A stretch of DNA of 64,000 nt. Origin: an uncultured Flavobacteriaceae bacterium (GTDB lineage Bacteria; Bacteroidota; Bacteroidia; Flavobacteriales; Flavobacteriaceae). The translations under genes were made by a program, and so were the position numbers. The stretch lies in assembly GCA_947500445.1 (NCBI GenBank), contig CANMSB010000004.1, positions 62,001 to 126,000 on the forward strand, written 5' to 3'. This document shows, in pieces, positions 11,778-43,112 of the stretch (positions are counted from its first letter, which is position 1; every line of letters begins with the position of its first letter). Under the pieces are notes generated by a model, which did no database searches, was not told where the DNA came from, and was given only the letters and a program-made list of their open reading frames with translations.

Positions 11778-11852
11778 CGAACAACTTTTGGTTCCGAAAG
11801 GGTCGCTTTCATTGGTCACGATCGTTAGTTGAAAGGTTGCACCTTGGTACTA

Positions 11853-12060
11853 ATACCATTTTAACTTTGAAATAGCACTAATAAAAGGTTTCTTTTTCAG
11901 CTGTACTTCGTTAAAAAGCCTGTCCCCGGCTTGACCGGGGATAGAACCGTAGCTAAGGCTATGCTTAGATCCCCGGTCAAGCCGGGGACGGGCTTTTTGC
12001 CTTGAACAACTAAAAAATAATTCAATTTCTATACATGCCATTTCAAAGTTAAAATGGTAT
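11853..12060. repeat. MITE-like palindromic repeat, family A copy 1 (with extra GC-rich dyad)
   Basis: This 208-bp non-coding element has terminal inverted repeats: the left end starts ATACCATTTTAACTTTGAAA, and the reverse complement of the right end matches it for the first 21 bases. TA dinucleotides sit at both outer ends, compatible with TA target duplication. It is the inverted counterpart of copy 2 at 33932-34093: the arms (GGTTTCTTTTTCAG, TTCGTTAAAAA; AGAAATTGAATTATTTTTTA) and the centre AAGCATAGCC-TAGCTA correspond. Between arm and centre, this copy alone carries a dyad with arms TCCCCGGCTTGACCGGGGAT and its complement. A 63-codon frame across it is treated as spurious. Confidence 0.8.
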
Positions 12061-12322
12061 ACGCTTTCCCGTTTGCTCTGGGCAATTGCTTTTTATAACA
12101 AGTTCTCCGTCGCAAATGCCATACAAACCAGCCTATCGCCGACAGGTAATCGGTATTTTGGTACGTTACGGAAAAGAATTTCATTCTTTGGTTGTATGCC
12201 TTTTAAATACAAAACAGTTTCGTACTGCAAAGCGGATAATTGGTACCGTTATCCGTTCCCTTTTTGTATGATTTTAAGTCATAACGCTTCGCGGCTTTCT
12301 TAATCGTCATGCTAACAGTTGC
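12061..12322. other. Intergenic region, no gene seen
   Basis: This stretch joins the repeat to the 3' end of the OstA-like gene. Open frames on the plus strand (up to 76 codons) show no family resemblance, signal peptide or promoter. No terminator hairpin with a T-run is evident. Confidence 0.5.
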
Positions 12323-14089: not shown

Positions 14090-14235
14090 TTTTGCCGGCA
14101 GAACCTATTCATTTTTGGATAGAATTGGCAATCGGGGTATGGTATATGCGGCAAAGAATGGTACCGATTTATGGAGGTGTTTCGTGTAAGGTAATTTAAA
14201 AATCAGTGGTCGTTCTTTAGGGTAAAAAAAACCAT

Positions 14236-14395
14236 GAACCCATTTAGACTTTTTGGATTGAAGCGAAAATTAGTGATTTAAAGGCCTGTTAAAGACTTTT
14301 TTGAGTTTCATAGCAGGGCTACGAGAGGAAAAAAAGGTAAAAACAGGGCTGTAAAGGACAATTTTTTAGCCAATTAAAAAAGTCTAAATGAGTTC
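14236..14395. repeat. Candidate inverted-repeat element, family B
   Basis: This is a 160-bp non-coding segment with 25-bp terminal inverted repeats that match at 22 positions (shared core CATTTAGACTTTTT, 14241-14254 and 14376-14389). The interior is AT-rich and has no coding frame. It lies in the 373-nt gap between the OstA-like gene and a terminator. Only one copy is seen in the window, so mobility is inferred from the end structure alone. Confidence 0.55.
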
Positions 14396-14405
14396 CATTT
14401 AAGAT

Positions 14406-27536: not shown

Positions 27537-28613
27537 ATGGACAACGAAAGGTATCAACGGCAGCTTATTTTAAAAGGCTTTGGTGCAACGGCACAGCAGA
27601 AACTGGCAAATGCCAGTGTTTTGGTCGTTGGAGCGGGCGGACTCGGTGTGCCGATGCTAACCTATTTGAATGCCATGGGGGTCGGGCGCATCGGAATTTT
27701 GGATGGTGATACGGTTTCGTTTTCAAACCTTCATCGGCAGGTCTTATACGTGGAGTCCGATGTCGGCCTTTCGAAGGTGGATGTTGCCAAGGAAAAGCTT
27801 TCCGCACAAAATTCAAATACCGTTTTAGAAGGGTACAACTACTTTCTGACAAAGGACAATGCATTGGAAACAATAGCGCAGTTCGATATTGTCGTAGACG
27901 CATCCGATAACTTTCCCACACGTTACCTGGTAAACGATGCCTGTGTACTACTCAAAAAACCATTTGTCTATGGAGCGTTGCATGCATTTGAAGGGCAGGT
28001 GAGCGTATTCAATTACCAAAAAGGCCCTACCTATCGTTGTTTGTTTCCGAACATGCCCAAACCCGATGAGGTACCCGATTGCAACGAAAATGGGGTATTG
28101 GGCATTCTTCCGGGCATTGTGGGTAATTTACAGGCTTTGGAGACGATTAAATTGATCACCGGGGTAGGGGAAGTGTTATCTGGACAATTGGCCCTGTTCG
28201 ATGGATTGGGTACCGTACTGCGTAAAATTCGGTTTTCCGCGATACCGGAGAACCTCCAAATAACGGCTTTACGGGACAATTATGAGTTAGAATGTGCCGT
28301 GGCGCCCGTTACTTCGGTTACTGCACTGGAATTTCAGGAACTTCTGGAGTTGGGGAACCCGCAGGTAATCGATGTACGTACCTTATCGGAATATGAAGGA
28401 CAACGGCTTTCGGTGGCCCGCCATATTCCTTTGACCGAGCTGGAGCAGCGTAAGGATGAGATCGATGTTAAGCGTCCCGTTTATTTCCTTTGCCAATCGG
28501 GTATCCGTAGTGCCAAAGGCATTTCGCTATTGGCGTCCTATTTTCCGAAAGCAACATTGATCAATGTTACCGGTGGCATGAACCAACTTCGTTCCTATGC
28601 TGCTACCCATTGA
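27537..28613 (+). CDS. moeB: MoeB/ThiF-type adenylyltransferase with C-terminal rhodanese domain
   Basis: This 358-residue E1-like enzyme activates the C-terminus of MoaD. Residues 1-235 carry the nucleotide site VVGAGGLGVPML (30-41), DGDTVSFSNLHRQ and the catalytic-cysteine region PDCNENGVLG (Cys182). Residues about 265-358 are a rhodanese domain with active-site Cys319 in YFLCQSGIRSAKG, which can deliver sulfur. The usual zinc-binding CxxC pairs look incomplete: the first reads TYRC and the second is absent. The fused layout is common in such proteins. The 3' end overlaps the next gene by 17 nt. Confidence 0.92.
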   Translation: MDNERYQRQLILKGFGATAQQKLANASVLVVGAGGLGVPMLTYLNAMGVGRIGILDGDTVSFSNLHRQVLYVESDVGLSKVDVAKEKLSAQNSNTVLEGYNYFLTKDNALETIAQFDIVVDASDNFPTRYLVNDACVLLKKPFVYGALHAFEGQVSVFNYQKGPTYRCLFPNMPKPDEVPDCNENGVLGILPGIVGNLQALETIKLITGVGEVLSGQLALFDGLGTVLRKIRFSAIPENLQITALRDNYELECAVAPVTSVTALEFQELLELGNPQVIDVRTLSEYEGQRLSVARHIPLTELEQRKDEIDVKRPVYFLCQSGIRSAKGISLLASYFPKATLINVTGGMNQLRSYAATH

Positions 28614-29373
28614 GCACCTTGTACTGCTGTGCCTTGGTTTTTTTATTGTTGCGGCCTTATATGCTTCTGTAGGGTTCGGTGGGGGATCTAGTTACTTGGC
28701 ACTATTGTCCTTAACCGTAATCGGCTTTTTTGGCATTCGCTCTTTGGCCTTGGTCTGTAATCTGATGGTGGTTTCCACGAGTACTTTTTTATACTTTAAA
28801 AATCGCCATGCCAATTTAAAGGACTTTTTGCCTTTTGTGGTCGCCAGCGTTCCATTGGCGTTTATTGGGGCCTCTTTTCGATTGAAAGAGGAGGTATTCT
28901 TTATTATTTTGGGCGGCGCTTTGGTTGTCTCATCGATTGCCTTGGCCTGGCAGACTTTTCATACGGCTTCAAAAAAGGATTTTAGCCGAAGGTATCCCAA
29001 ATGGGTTTCTTATGGTTTGGGAGCATCCATTGGATTGTTATCGGGTTTGGTGGGTATTGGTGGCGGTATTTTTCTAGCGCCCGTATTGAACCACTTGCGC
29101 TGGGCATCTTCCTTAAAAATTGCCGCCTTGGCCAGTTTTTTTATTTTGGTGAATTCCCTTTCAAGTTTGGCGGGACTTGCTGCCGCAGAAACCCTTGCCT
29201 TGCCTTTTGTGGAAACTGTGGCATTGATGGCGACCGTTTTTTTGGGAGGCCAACTTGGCATTCGTATCGGTCTTAAGAAAATGACCCCAAGAGCGATAAA
29301 AATGGTCACCGCACTATTGGTATTTATAGTAGGTATCCGGGTATTGCTAAAGAATGGTCTAGGCGTTTTTTAA
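28597..29373 (+). CDS. TauE/SafE (TSUP) family membrane exporter
   Basis: This 258-residue polytopic protein has about eight hydrophobic helices and the two TSUP repeats, with SVGFGGGSSYLALLSL in the first half and GLVGIGGGIFLAPVL in the second. Family members export sulfite or other sulfur-containing organic anions. It overlaps the end of moeB, so it belongs to the molybdopterin run. With the molybdenum sulfite oxidase at 2390-3613, this suggests handling of sulfite, but the substrate is inferred. Confidence 0.9.
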   Translation: MLLPIEHLVLLCLGFFIVAALYASVGFGGGSSYLALLSLTVIGFFGIRSLALVCNLMVVSTSTFLYFKNRHANLKDFLPFVVASVPLAFIGASFRLKEEVFFIILGGALVVSSIALAWQTFHTASKKDFSRRYPKWVSYGLGASIGLLSGLVGIGGGIFLAPVLNHLRWASSLKIAALASFFILVNSLSSLAGLAAAETLALPFVETVALMATVFLGGQLGIRIGLKKMTPRAIKMVTALLVFIVGIRVLLKNGLGVF

Positions 29374-29417
29374 GGCGGCGGTCTTCTTTCGATTGGCAAC
29401 TTTTGAGAAGGATCGAA

Positions 29418-29462
29418 TTCAAATGTCAAATTCAAACACAAATGTCAAACACAAATTCAAAA
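29418..29462. repeat. Short TTTGnn(n) tandem run
   Basis: On the minus strand this segment reads as consecutive 6-7-nt units starting TTTG (TTTGAA, TTTGTG, TTTGACA, TTTGTG, TTTGAA, TTTGACA, TTTGAA). It adjoins the heptamer array and lies between two convergent genes. Confidence 0.7.
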
Positions 29463-29476
29463 TCGTGTTTTTTTTT

Positions 29477-29547
29477 GACTACTTATTACTTCCTACTTAT
29501 TACTTTATACTCACCACTCACCACTCACCACTGAATACTAAACTACT
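29477..29547. repeat. Degenerate heptanucleotide tandem array (nnnnACT)
   Basis: Ten consecutive units end in ACT with a seven-base period: GACTACT, TATTACT, TCCTACT, TATTACT, TTATACT, CACCACT three times, GAATACT, then one extra base and AACTACT. The three identical CACCACT units suggest recent slippage. The array is in the 191-nt gap between the convergent 3' ends at 29373 and 29565 and resembles the short tandemly repeated heptamers known in cyanobacteria. Confidence 0.8.
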
Positions 29548-29564
29548 AAACCCTGAAAAGGGCA

Positions 29565-30851
29565 TCACTTCCCTTCGTACTTCTTCATATACCGTTTCCA
29601 AAGTTTCGTTTGGTGTGTTTCCAGAGAGATGGCACGTCCGTCAATAAAAGCGTGCGTCAGCTGGTTGCTGCGCATATCGAGCGCATCGCCTTCCGAAACG
29701 AAGAGGGTCGCACTTTTTCCTATGGCTAGCGTTCCATACGTATCGTCTATTCCTAAGATTTTTGCCGAGTTTCCGGTAATCAATTGAACCGCTTGCTCCT
29801 TATCCAAGCCTTGTCCCGCTACCTGTCCCGCATAAAAAGGGAGGTTCCTTGTTTGAAAATTACTGGCTTCCCCATTTTGAAGGGCCACCAGAATACCGGC
29901 ATCCAACAATAGCTTCGGTAATTTGTAGGGCAGGTCATAATCCTCATGATCGAAAACGGGCAATTGGTGGGTAAACTGCACCAGCACGGGAATACTGTTT
30001 TCTTTTAAGAAGTCTACCACTTTATGGGCATGGTATCCACCGACCAAAACGATCTGGGAAACCCCCTGGTTTTTTGCCATTTGGATGCCATCGATGATCT
30101 GACGTTCATTGTCCGCATAAAGGTATAGTTTCTGACTCCCGTCAAAAACGCCTTTCATGGCCGCGAACGCAGGATTCATTTCTTTTGAGGCGCCTTTTCC
30201 ATACGCCTTGGCACCGGTCAAAAAGGTAGTAATTTCGGTCACTTGTTCCTCGTACTTGTCGTTGGGTTTATATCCGGGGTCTTCGCCCATCCACCACCGA
30301 CCGGCCCTAAAGGTACTCGGCCAGCGCAAATGTATGCCGTCGTCCACTTTTATCGCGGCATCTTCCCAGTTCCATGCATCGAACTGTACAATGGAAGAGG
30401 TGCCCGATATGCGTCCTCCCTGCGGCGTGATCTGTCCGATCAACACACCGTTCGGTCGCATACTTTCCACTACTTTGGATTCCGCATTATAGGCGATGAG
30501 GCTTCGGACATGTGGAATGATATCACCAATTTCATCCTGGTCGTTACTGGCCCTTACGGCATTGACCTCAATAAGGCCCAAAGACTTGTTAGGGGCAATA
30601 AACCCGGGATAAACGTGTTTTCCGGAAGCATCGATTTCGGTTCCTTTAACGGTCGCATCGGCGGCAATAGCGGTTATTTTTCCGTTTTCGAACACTATTG
30701 TGGCATTTTCGATAAGGGTGCCATCACCTAAATGTGCCGTAGCCCCGGTAATGCTAATTGCCCCGTCCTGCGCCGGAGCGGGTGTTTGTTGTGCATTGTG
30801 CTGCAGGCACACGCCTAAAAGGACAATCAGCGCTATAACTACTTTTTTCAT
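29565..30851 (-). CDS. Exported amidohydrolase-family protein lacking metal ligands
   Basis: This exported protein has about 428 residues and an amidohydrolase-like layout: a beta-sandwich part (GTLIENATIVFENGKITAI, GTEIDASGKHVYPGFI) and a TIM-barrel region, ending with the second half of the sandwich (GTLAIGKSATLFVSEGDAL). The metal-binding HxH expected after the first strand is absent (HVYPGFIAPNKS), and the usual active-site Asp near the end of the barrel reads LQNGEAS. It may be catalytically inactive. The start at 30851 is chosen because MKKVVIALIVLLGVC forms a signal peptide; 30881 is possible. It is followed on the same strand by nothing recognisable and preceded, 31 nt away, by a larger homologue. 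Confidence 0.8.
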   Translation of the reverse strand: MKKVVIALIVLLGVCLQHNAQQTPAPAQDGAISITGATAHLGDGTLIENATIVFENGKITAIAADATVKGTEIDASGKHVYPGFIAPNKSLGLIEVNAVRASNDQDEIGDIIPHVRSLIAYNAESKVVESMRPNGVLIGQITPQGGRISGTSSIVQFDAWNWEDAAIKVDDGIHLRWPSTFRAGRWWMGEDPGYKPNDKYEEQVTEITTFLTGAKAYGKGASKEMNPAFAAMKGVFDGSQKLYLYADNERQIIDGIQMAKNQGVSQIVLVGGYHAHKVVDFLKENSIPVLVQFTHQLPVFDHEDYDLPYKLPKLLLDAGILVALQNGEASNFQTRNLPFYAGQVAGQGLDKEQAVQLITGNSAKILGIDDTYGTLAIGKSATLFVSEGDALDMRSNQLTHAFIDGRAISLETHQTKLWKRYMKKYEGK

Positions 30852-30882
30852 GGGATATCGGTATAATTGGTATAGTGACATA

Positions 30883-33834: not shown

Positions 33835-33931
33835 CTGGTAAGGTATCAGGTTATTAGTCCCGTTAAAAATAGGGGAAGTAGCGTAATTTTATCCTCTTGT
33901 CGGGATATTTTAACGTTTCAACGATGATTTT

Positions 33932-34093
33932 ATACCAATTTAGCTTTGAAATAGCACGTATAGAAATTGAATTATTTTTTAGGTATTCAAGGCAAAAAAC
34001 GGAAGCATAGCCGTAGCTATGGTTATTTTTTTTAACGAATAATAACTGAAAAAGAAACTATTTATTTGTGCTATTTCAAAGTTAAATTGGTAT
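33932..34093. repeat. MITE-like palindromic repeat, family A copy 2
   Basis: This 162-bp element begins ATACCAATTTAGCTTTGAAA and ends with the near inverted complement (CAAAGTTAAATTGGTAT). Its centre is the imperfect palindrome AAGCATAGCCGTAGCTATGG. The arms match copy 1 (11853-12060) in the opposite orientation over nearly their full length. It occupies most of the 304-nt gap between the amidohydrolase and DUF3810 genes. A 75-codon frame overlapping it is considered spurious. Confidence 0.8.
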
Positions 34094-34138
34094 TCTACCA
34101 TTTCTGATAAGCTATAGGATACTGGGGGTGCAACGGGG

Positions 34139-41853: not shown

Positions 41854-41929
41854 TTGATACCGACCGAAATGATTATTGGCGAATTACATCTGACCATTAA
41901 AAAACAATAAATATTAACAGATGAAATGG

Positions 41930-41982
41930 GCATAAACTTGTTTTAAGCATACTCTATCGAGATGATTAAAACAAGTTTATGC
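41930..41982. promoter_or_regulatory. Long AT-rich dyad between the DHH and PhoD genes
   Basis: The arms GCATAAACTTGTTTTAA and TTAAAACAAGTTTATGC are perfect 17-bp complements separated by 19 nt. They stand 65 nt upstream of the PhoD-like start. Without a T-run a terminator is unlikely; a regulatory stem in the leader or a protein-binding dyad is plausible. Confidence 0.45.
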
Positions 41983-42047
41983 GAATTACTGAAAGTGCAG
42001 AAATTTTTAGTTTCTTCATTTTCAATAAACTACAAAATTTTAAACAG

Positions 42048-43112
42048 ATGAAAGTAAATATATTGGTGTGGGTATTGGCGGTGGGTTGTATTTTGGGTAG
42101 CTGTAAGGCGAACCGTAATGCTACGGCAAAAAATGATTTGGAGGAAAAGGAAACTTCCGATGCCGAAGCTTTTACCATAGCATTTGGGTCCTGCAATAAA
42201 ACCAGTATCAAAAACTTCCTTTGGGACGATATTATTGCATTGGAACCCGACCTATGGATATGGGGGGGCGACAATATTTATGCCGATACCGAGGATATTC
42301 AAAAACTACAACAACTATACGGGGCGCAAAAGGGATTGAAGGGGTACCGCGAATTGAGGGCCGCCATACCGGTAATCGGCACTTGGGATGACCATGACTA
42401 CGGTGTGAACGATGGCGGGAGTGAGTTTCCGGTAAAGAAAGAGAGCCAACAGGCATTTTTAGATTTTATGGACGTACCCATGGACAGTCCCAGACGTACC
42501 CAAGAAGGTATTTATACCAGCCACGAGTATCGGTTGCCGGACGGAAGGGTAAAAGTAATCGTTTTGGATACACGGTATTTTAGAACGCCGTTGACCTTGG
42601 ATACGGTTACCGTTAAGCGCACCAAATCGAATGCGTATGGGGATGGTACCATTTTAGGGGATAAACAATGGGAATGGCTCACCAAGGAGTTGAATGCCTC
42701 CGATGCCAATTTTAATGTTATCGTCAGCAGTATTCAAGTGCTTTCGAACGAACACGGTTGGGAGACATGGGGCAATTTTCCGCATGAGGTGGACCGTTTG
42801 AAAAAAACAATTGCTGACTCCGGGGCCGCTGGTGTCCTTATTCTTTCGGGAGACCGTCATATTTCGGAATTTTCACAGACCTCGGTCGCCGATTTGGATT
42901 ATCCTTTGGTCGACTTCACGAGTAGTGGTCTTACCCATGCCGTTTCCAATTTCAAAGGGGAGCCGAACCCTTTCCGGGTCGGTAGCGTGGTATCGGACGA
43001 GAGTTTCGGGCTGTTGCGTTTCGATTTTTTAAACAATACCGTTTCTATGAAAATGATCGGGGACAATGGCCAAACGCTTCATGAGCTGGACCGATCTTAT
43101 GGCGGTAAATGA
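42048..43112 (+). CDS. PhoD-like phosphatase/phosphodiesterase lipoprotein
   Basis: This 354-residue lipoprotein (lipobox LGSC) has the metallophosphatase pattern of the PhoD family: FGSCNKTS, IWGGDNIYAD, GTWDDHDYGVNDGG, VIVLDTRYFR and ILSGDRHISEF supply the metal ligands and phosphate contacts. PhoD enzymes are calcium/iron alkaline phosphatases or phosphodiesterases that release phosphate outside the cytoplasm. The ATG at 42048 is chosen because it starts the lipoprotein signal; the frame is open to 41979. Two inverted repeats lie upstream. No Pho box was identified. Confidence 0.88.
   Translation: MKVNILVWVLAVGCILGSCKANRNATAKNDLEEKETSDAEAFTIAFGSCNKTSIKNFLWDDIIALEPDLWIWGGDNIYADTEDIQKLQQLYGAQKGLKGYRELRAAIPVIGTWDDHDYGVNDGGSEFPVKKESQQAFLDFMDVPMDSPRRTQEGIYTSHEYRLPDGRVKVIVLDTRYFRTPLTLDTVTVKRTKSNAYGDGTILGDKQWEWLTKELNASDANFNVIVSSIQVLSNEHGWETWGNFPHEVDRLKKTIADSGAAGVLILSGDRHISEFSQTSVADLDYPLVDFTSSGLTHAVSNFKGEPNPFRVGSVVSDESFGLLRFDFLNNTVSMKMIGDNGQTLHELDRSYGGK

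Follow-up and report, generated by a model that had tools for sequence, protein, structure and literature searches.

Degenerate heptad arrays beside IVP (PF05635) genes and a probable solo derivative in an uncultured Flavobacteriaceae bacterium

Tandem heptamers have been described from several bacteria. In Coxiella burnetii, as the relevant part of PMC4990558 describes it, the intervening sequence (IVS) of the 23S rRNA gene has a 28-bp stem, is cleaved by RNase III and is regarded as selfish, and tandem heptamers (GACAGAT), whose number varies between strains, lie just 5' of its S23p open reading frame (ORF). The same part gives IVP/S23p proteins no known function and presents the Xanthomonas S23p as a toroidal homopentamer (Lin et al., 2006, cited in PMC4990558). 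TAACTGA heptamers of Beggiatoaceae, Cyanobacteria and five Bacteroidetes appear, in the section of PMC4679880 that treats them, as possible sites of a translational regulator. GGGAATC and GGGGATT heptamers of Xanthomonas and Nostoc are treated as formers of G-quadruplexes in the portion of PMC4692102 devoted to them, and the SPADE survey of prokaryotic heptamer DNA repeats gives no gene association where it reports them (PMC6344855). Here we analyse a heptad array in a 64,000-nucleotide stretch of an uncultured Flavobacteriaceae genome (assembly GCA_947500445.1, contig CANMSB010000004.1, positions 62,001 to 126,000; hereafter the window) and compare it with arrays that flank genes of the IVP family (PF05635, 23S_rRNA_IVP).

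The array and its kin share features with each of these systems. IVP cassettes and the 23S rRNA IVS have the same protein family and complementary ends that form a stem, as far as the IVS is described in PMC4990558; they differ in that the cassettes seen here lie in spacers between protein genes, that the copy in the window has no ORF, and that the Coxiella heptamers are not generalised in that part of the source. The TAACTGA heptamers are likewise mostly intergenic, occur in Bacteroidota among others and hold stop codons in all frames, but the section of PMC4679880 concerned draws no IVP link. The GGGAATC/GGGGATT heptamers are also intergenic and in some cases paired, and the IVP flank of a Dyella genome (L270) consists of GGGAATC-like units, whereas IVP is not mentioned in the corresponding portion of PMC4692102. 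The GGGAAT heptad pattern matched 16 times in this Dyella genome and 65 times in a Luteimonas genome (L273), whose IVP flank uses a GTGATTG-like word, and not once in the other six genomes searched; there are five pairs of a forward followed by a reverse match, 63-173 bases apart.

PF05635 genes usually carry degenerate arrays of period 7 or 8, inverted between the two sides, each locus having its own word and about five units per side, and this association holds in the phylum of the window, in other phyla and in cyanobacterial plasmids. The genome of the window (5.18 Mb in 177 contigs) holds four PF05635 genes (L172-L175), none of them in the window; two of its heptad arrays directly precede such genes, and by eye repeats adjoin all four. 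Period-7 flank scores (maximum agreement out of 28, with left and right as seen from the gene) were 21/19 for L172, 13/19 for L173 and 15/15 for L174, which sits between atpA and atpG; L175, a gene with an internal stop, scored 13/12 at period 7, and its right flank 24 at period 6. Flanks of 120 bases were then scored at 149 IVP loci in three sets, two from relatives, with 32 and 40 loci, and one of 77 named loci, the last being those scored among 80 kept from at least 591 matches of a motif scan with one genome per species. The named set leans to one subfamily through the search motif and the query L178, whose own flanks have period 8/9, and the tally omits loci with N or short flanks (L241 and L246, which contain N, and L245) as well as L199, which is wrongly framed. 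The best joint flank period was 7 or 14 at 103 of the 149 loci (25/32 and 31/40 among relatives, 47/77 among named loci) and 8 at a further 34 (4, 4 and 26 in the three sets). Named loci span Bacteroidota, Cloacimonadota, relatives of Desulfosarcina and Geobacter, Acidobacteria, Nitrospirae, Clostridia, Anaerolineae, Patescibacteria and Proteobacteria. Agreement of at least 18/28 at period 7/8 was reached by 68.6% of 153 IVP flanks, whereas among 85 other intergenic gaps of the contigs in the named set the share was 15.3%; random windows reach this value at period 7 in 2.2% of cases.

Thirteen IVP loci on plasmids, all cyanobacterial and taken from the 20 listed of 43 matching plasmid records, had a best period of 7 in 12 cases and of 8 in one, with flank units that include GGGAACA, AGTCAGG, TTCTGCC and CTAAAAG; two of these loci (L367 and L368) are near-identical, and L373 scores 14/14 and has no evident array. 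On such plasmids IVP genes were also seen within CRISPR operons (L370, L371 and L378), twice in the order cas6-IVP-cas4 and once as cmr2-IVP-cmr3. A phage collection searched with a single query at E 1e-5 gave no IVP match. Our literature search of open-licence PMC papers did not find the link between IVP and heptads, the sole co-mention being the Coxiella repeat in the part of PMC4990558 cited above.

The two flanks of a locus belong together. Across 150 loci, the left flank scored on average 15.5 against the reverse complement of its own right flank, compared with 8.3 for other genomes (n=2250), 8.5 for other loci of the same genome (n=338), 10.2 for shuffles and 10.2 in direct orientation; its own partner ranked best of the 150 in 55 loci and among the top three in 84. 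In 68 of these loci both flanks have a tract score of 9 or more; here the median unit count was 4.6 on the left and 4.9 on the right, and the polarity was usually the same, the left side being G-rich (GC skew above 0 in 61/68) and the right C-rich (below 0 in 63/68). In this subset the RNA duplex of a locus's own two flanks had -39 kcal/mol, as against -24 for mismatched loci, and folds of the whole cassette contained a median of 23 left-right pairs, as against 5 when a foreign right flank was supplied. Whether the period is 7 or 8 tracks protein relationship across other sites and genomes (77/101, where 59% would be expected; permutation p=0.0006, organism kinship uncorrected). That the word itself is set by overall IVP similarity we reject, the effect being slight once orthologous sites are removed (8.72 vs 8.27, p=1.6e-4).

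IVP genes and heptads also occur together at the level of genomes. Among 40 genomes, the one studied here and its relatives, 25 have both IVP and ACT heptads, one has IVP alone (on a match below the family cut-off), two have heptads alone and 12 have neither (p=2e-7). For 296 genomes of the phylum, with IVP counted at E<=0.001 (221 of the 235 IVP-bearing genomes pass the family cut-off), the corresponding numbers are 185, 50, 9 and 52 (odds ratio 21, p=2.6e-20), which places ACT heptads in 185/235 IVP-bearing genomes and in 9/61 of those free of IVP. Adding TCA heptads, the tool's control, gives 203, 32, 19 and 42 (odds ratio 14, p=1e-16). Since the genomes are related, none of these p-values refers to independent events.

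The array of the window comprises an AGT half and a TTTG half (Table 1). On the forward strand, ACT begins in exact seven-base register at 29481, 29488, 29495, 29502, 29509, 29516, 29523, 29530 and 29537, and off register at 29478, 29542 and 29545, and three consecutive ACTCACC units stand inside this half. The other half is built of TCAAATG, TCAAATT and CAAACAC units. Period-7 agreement peaks at 38/50 in a 50-base window, a value never approached in 200 order-2 Markov shuffles of the window (mean 25.9, maximum 29); the other periods between 2 and 30 reach at most 36, and that 36 is period 14 of the same ACT array. The pattern ACT(N4ACT)x3 is present six times in the window, and 100 dinucleotide shuffles never contain it. 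The initial annotation, made from the letters of this stretch, was thus right about the nine ACTs in register, the second run of TTTG units and the convergent genes on either side. Its comparison with cyanobacterial heptads is also borne out: tandem seven-base units above chance, intergenic and dispersed in the genome, are what characterises heptameric short tandemly repeated repetitive (STRR) sequences and long simple sequence repeats (LSSR). The site lies between TauE and amidohydrolase genes, hence not inside an rRNA gene as a 23S rRNA IVS does; an 84-aa ORF (29393-29647) crosses the array, and Rfam gave no match across 28800-30000.

The AGT half scores 20 against the left flank of L172 from the same genome, where 1500 random windows reach at most 15, and the adjoining amidohydrolase gene end has the G-rich strand of the array as its sense strand, the polarity found in IVP cassettes. 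The array agrees with this IVP flank in period, polarity and word, yet gene and inverted partner are both missing. We therefore interpret it as a solo derivative of the repeats that flank IVP elements, probably a neutral one, a reading that the sequence comparisons make likely. At its site, it probably has no essential function at present.

Arrays of the same word lie elsewhere in the genome. Five ACTs at seven-base spacing match 249 times, and the reversed pattern, itself a heptad pattern, 41 times; a sample from three contigs (846 kb) contained five strong arrays (score >=22) of period 7, four of period 14 and two of period 6, with none at the remaining periods from 4 to 15 and none at all in a shuffled copy of the sample. 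The initial annotation had counted against its own proposal a lack both of heptad excess in the genome and of variation in relatives; as the excess exists, that objection fails. Its suggestion of enrichment at convergent gene ends found no support: of 22 array places, among the matches listed on contigs C1-C11, 4 are convergent, 12 tandem, 1 divergent, 4 at a contig end and 1 in an ORF, against 41 convergent of 215 background gaps from 400 kb (118 tandem, 56 divergent). Variation in unit number, which it proposed to compare between strains, could not be seen: a comparable array is absent 3' of the amidohydrolase gene in the eight congeners where this gene was found (period-7 best 11-16/28 vs 23 here); these are congeners rather than genomes of the same species, the check covered the amidohydrolase side of the site, and the gene was not found in the ninth congener (G005).

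Many arrays belong to a composite element of, by eye, about 160-230 bases that joins AGT heptads, TTTGA heptads, a core with TTTCAGCGCAGCGGTCTTTTTT and CAATTAG heptads, an order that recurs but is not kept everywhere, C5:198417-202419 for instance having a different core. BLAST with one composite unit found 96 matches in the own genome (G000), 41 in G003, 16 in G002, 15 in G008, 12 in G007 and one each in G001 and G004, and none in G005, G006 and G009. Heptad arrays or the composite element also stand at or near the ends of contigs C2 and C5 and the starts of C3, C13, C22, C24, C35, C56-C58, C69, C72, C73 and C79. Since contigs begin or end in or near arrays, the true number and length of arrays are probably underestimated.

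Two rival explanations concern the origin of the arrays. The arrays could be ordinary simple-sequence repeats with no link to a gene, slippage favouring seven-base units, for which a polymerase footprint has been put forward (Mrazek et al., 2007, as cited in the pertinent part of PMC4679880), and such units, 7 not being a multiple of 3, being tolerated between genes. The prevalence of heptads among the strong arrays, the identical ACTCACC units, the existence of long perfect arrays and the single array place inside an ORF all fit this. However, it fails to predict inverted, locus-matched arrays on both sides of IVP genes, their polarity or the co-occurrence, and the IVP association contradicts slippage as the sole cause; we therefore think it unlikely as a full account, while slippage may still explain how arrays lengthen. 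Alternatively, the arrays could be independent intergenic features, for example the repeats of another mobile system, that serve as integration hot spots, with IVP their passenger and not their owner. Consistent with this, the 249 pattern matches and 96 composite matches far exceed the four IVP genes, and repeat words track IVP protein similarity only slightly. Yet integration into a direct array should leave the word direct, not inverted, on both sides, arrays are absent from most IVP-less genomes, and the Coxiella IVS described in PMC4990558 has its heptamers beside the S23p ORF inside an rRNA gene. We hold a passenger role to be improbable.

A third explanation would make the arrays insulators of translation or transcription, in which stop-rich heptads end readthrough after a gene, three units stopping all frames because 7 mod 3 is 1, or a C-rich unstructured strand aids Rho termination. 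Left arrays of IVP cassettes do have a raised density of stop codons on the sense strand (0.110 vs 0.067 when shuffled and 0.044 antisense), and where a gene ends at most 30 bases from one of the 22 listed array places of this genome, its sense strand is the G-rich one in 11/11 cases, a count that is partly circular because the stop-rich strand ends any ORF entering the array. Given also that the congeners have no array after the same amidohydrolase gene, we regard an insulating function as very unlikely.

The atpA-atpG spacer, compared in nine genomes of the genus (G006 gave no match), places arrays with and without IVP at one site. An IVP gene with arrays occupies it in G000 and G007, and heptad-like sequence without IVP, inverted by eye, in G003, G008, G002, G004 and G001. 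Folding of these IVP-less spacers, G001 excepted, gave a 19-bp hairpin in G003 (z -6.5) and z values of -3.3 in G008, -2.8 in G004 and -1.3 in G002. The spacer of G005, a genome with neither an IVP gene nor ACT heptads, contains no repeat. We read this series as running from full cassette through relic to empty site, the direction of change being unproven. The G009 spacer (L327) has a different repeat, with CCCCCTCTAACTCCCCCAAAAGGGGAG, where its congeners have heptads.

Based on these observations, we see the IVP element as a small selfish cassette, in which one gene for a four-helix-bundle protein (PF05635) stands between inverted arrays of seven-base, less often eight-base, units in short intergenic spacers. 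Having the size of one short ORF, the cassette has no transposase or reverse transcriptase of its own. In the transcript, the two arrays would pair into a stem like the ends of 23S rRNA intervening sequences, and through this stem the cassette would be tolerated within operon mRNA. Polarity, stem and the Coxiella precedent make an element that resembles an intervening sequence and acts at the level of the transcript the best reading. Solo arrays would arise once the gene is lost or was never carried along, and would then drift and be lengthened by slippage. The near-five unit number and the relationship of period to protein suggest that an IVP ring reads the array. Solved homologues (2gsc, from Xanthomonas XCC0516, and 2rld) have five chains each, and a pentameric ring predicted to bind the array with one unit per subunit would determine the repeat period as well as an array length near five units. 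Against such a role, the word follows the protein only slightly, and S23p is probably not expressed in Coxiella according to the part of PMC4990558 that addresses it, which disfavours a role of the protein there. The bAvd protein of diversity-generating retroelements (PF22296) has weak profile similarity to the IVP of L172 (E 1.7e-5, below the curated cut-off).

Several further observations weigh against a solo derivative or against the underlying link between IVP and arrays. The window array contains no PF05635 gene and no inverted partner, both halves having the same polarity by eye; the random windows behind the L172 comparison were mostly coding DNA; the TTTG half matches the right flank of L175 moderately, at 13.5 (control 99th percentile 11, maximum 19); and the RNA structure of the array is weak (z -1.8 and -1.3). 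Among the four IVP genes of the genome, both flanks score above 18/28 at period 7 only in L172; one flank does in L173 and neither in L174, and L175 has a period-6 flank. In the phylum, the nine IVP-less genomes with ACT heptads have up to 158 matches, ten more have TCA heptads, and of the 235 IVP-bearing genomes 50 are without ACT heptads and 32 without either kind. Genome size correlates with heptads too (Spearman 0.72 vs 0.78 for IVP number); despite this confounder, of the 41 genomes that reach 2.8 Mb but lack IVP, 34 are without ACT heptads.

Table 1. Features at and around the heptad array of the window.
Feature	Coordinates	Strand	Remark
AGT-type heptad array (ACT on +) with degenerate ends	29478..29551	-	nine exact-register ACT starts, 29481-29537
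Second array, TTTGnnn units on - strand, mixed 6/7/13/19 period	29418..29461	-	
T9 tract separating both arrays	29468..29476	+	
Stretch resembling the core of the composite element, overlapping the TauE stop codon	29370..29399	+	score 17.5, equalled by 1/3000 random windows
Sulfite exporter TauE/SafE family gene (PF01925), flanking	28597..29373	+	
Amidohydrolase gene, flanking; stop codon 13 bases from the array region	29565..30881	-	

Other dispersed repeats were noted in passing. One resembles a miniature inverted-repeat transposable element (MITE), a palindrome of about 170-210 bases (TACCATTTTAACTTTGAAATAG and its inverted copy) at 11848-12061 and 33929-34094 of the window, with further copies at C1:219200, 246804, 262684 and 345724. 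Another element, with TTTAGACTTTTTGGATTGAAGCG, lies at 14235-14398 of the window and at C1:304826. A third repeat, with TTTTTAGTTTCTTCATTTTC followed by AAAATTTTAAACAGATG, stands immediately 5' of a gene start at 41921-42056 of the window and is perhaps a common leader; its relatives lie on C1 at 27268, 50337, 214044, 219904 and 295884.

TRAP wraps RNA triplets. By analogy, we put forward tentatively, as a possibility we would not call likely, the joint proposal that most intergenic bacterial arrays of period 7 or 8, the heptads of cyanobacteria, Xanthomonadales and Bacteroidota included, are ends or relics of one ancient selfish IVP class, and that their period is the register of a pentameric ring that would wrap about five units of transcript or single strand. 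If repeats and IVP do belong together, the repeats gain an owner and the protein a candidate substrate, and the intervening sequences of 23S rRNA would become a special case of a broader element. A testable origin is thereby offered for a type of bacterial repeat that has long been puzzling.
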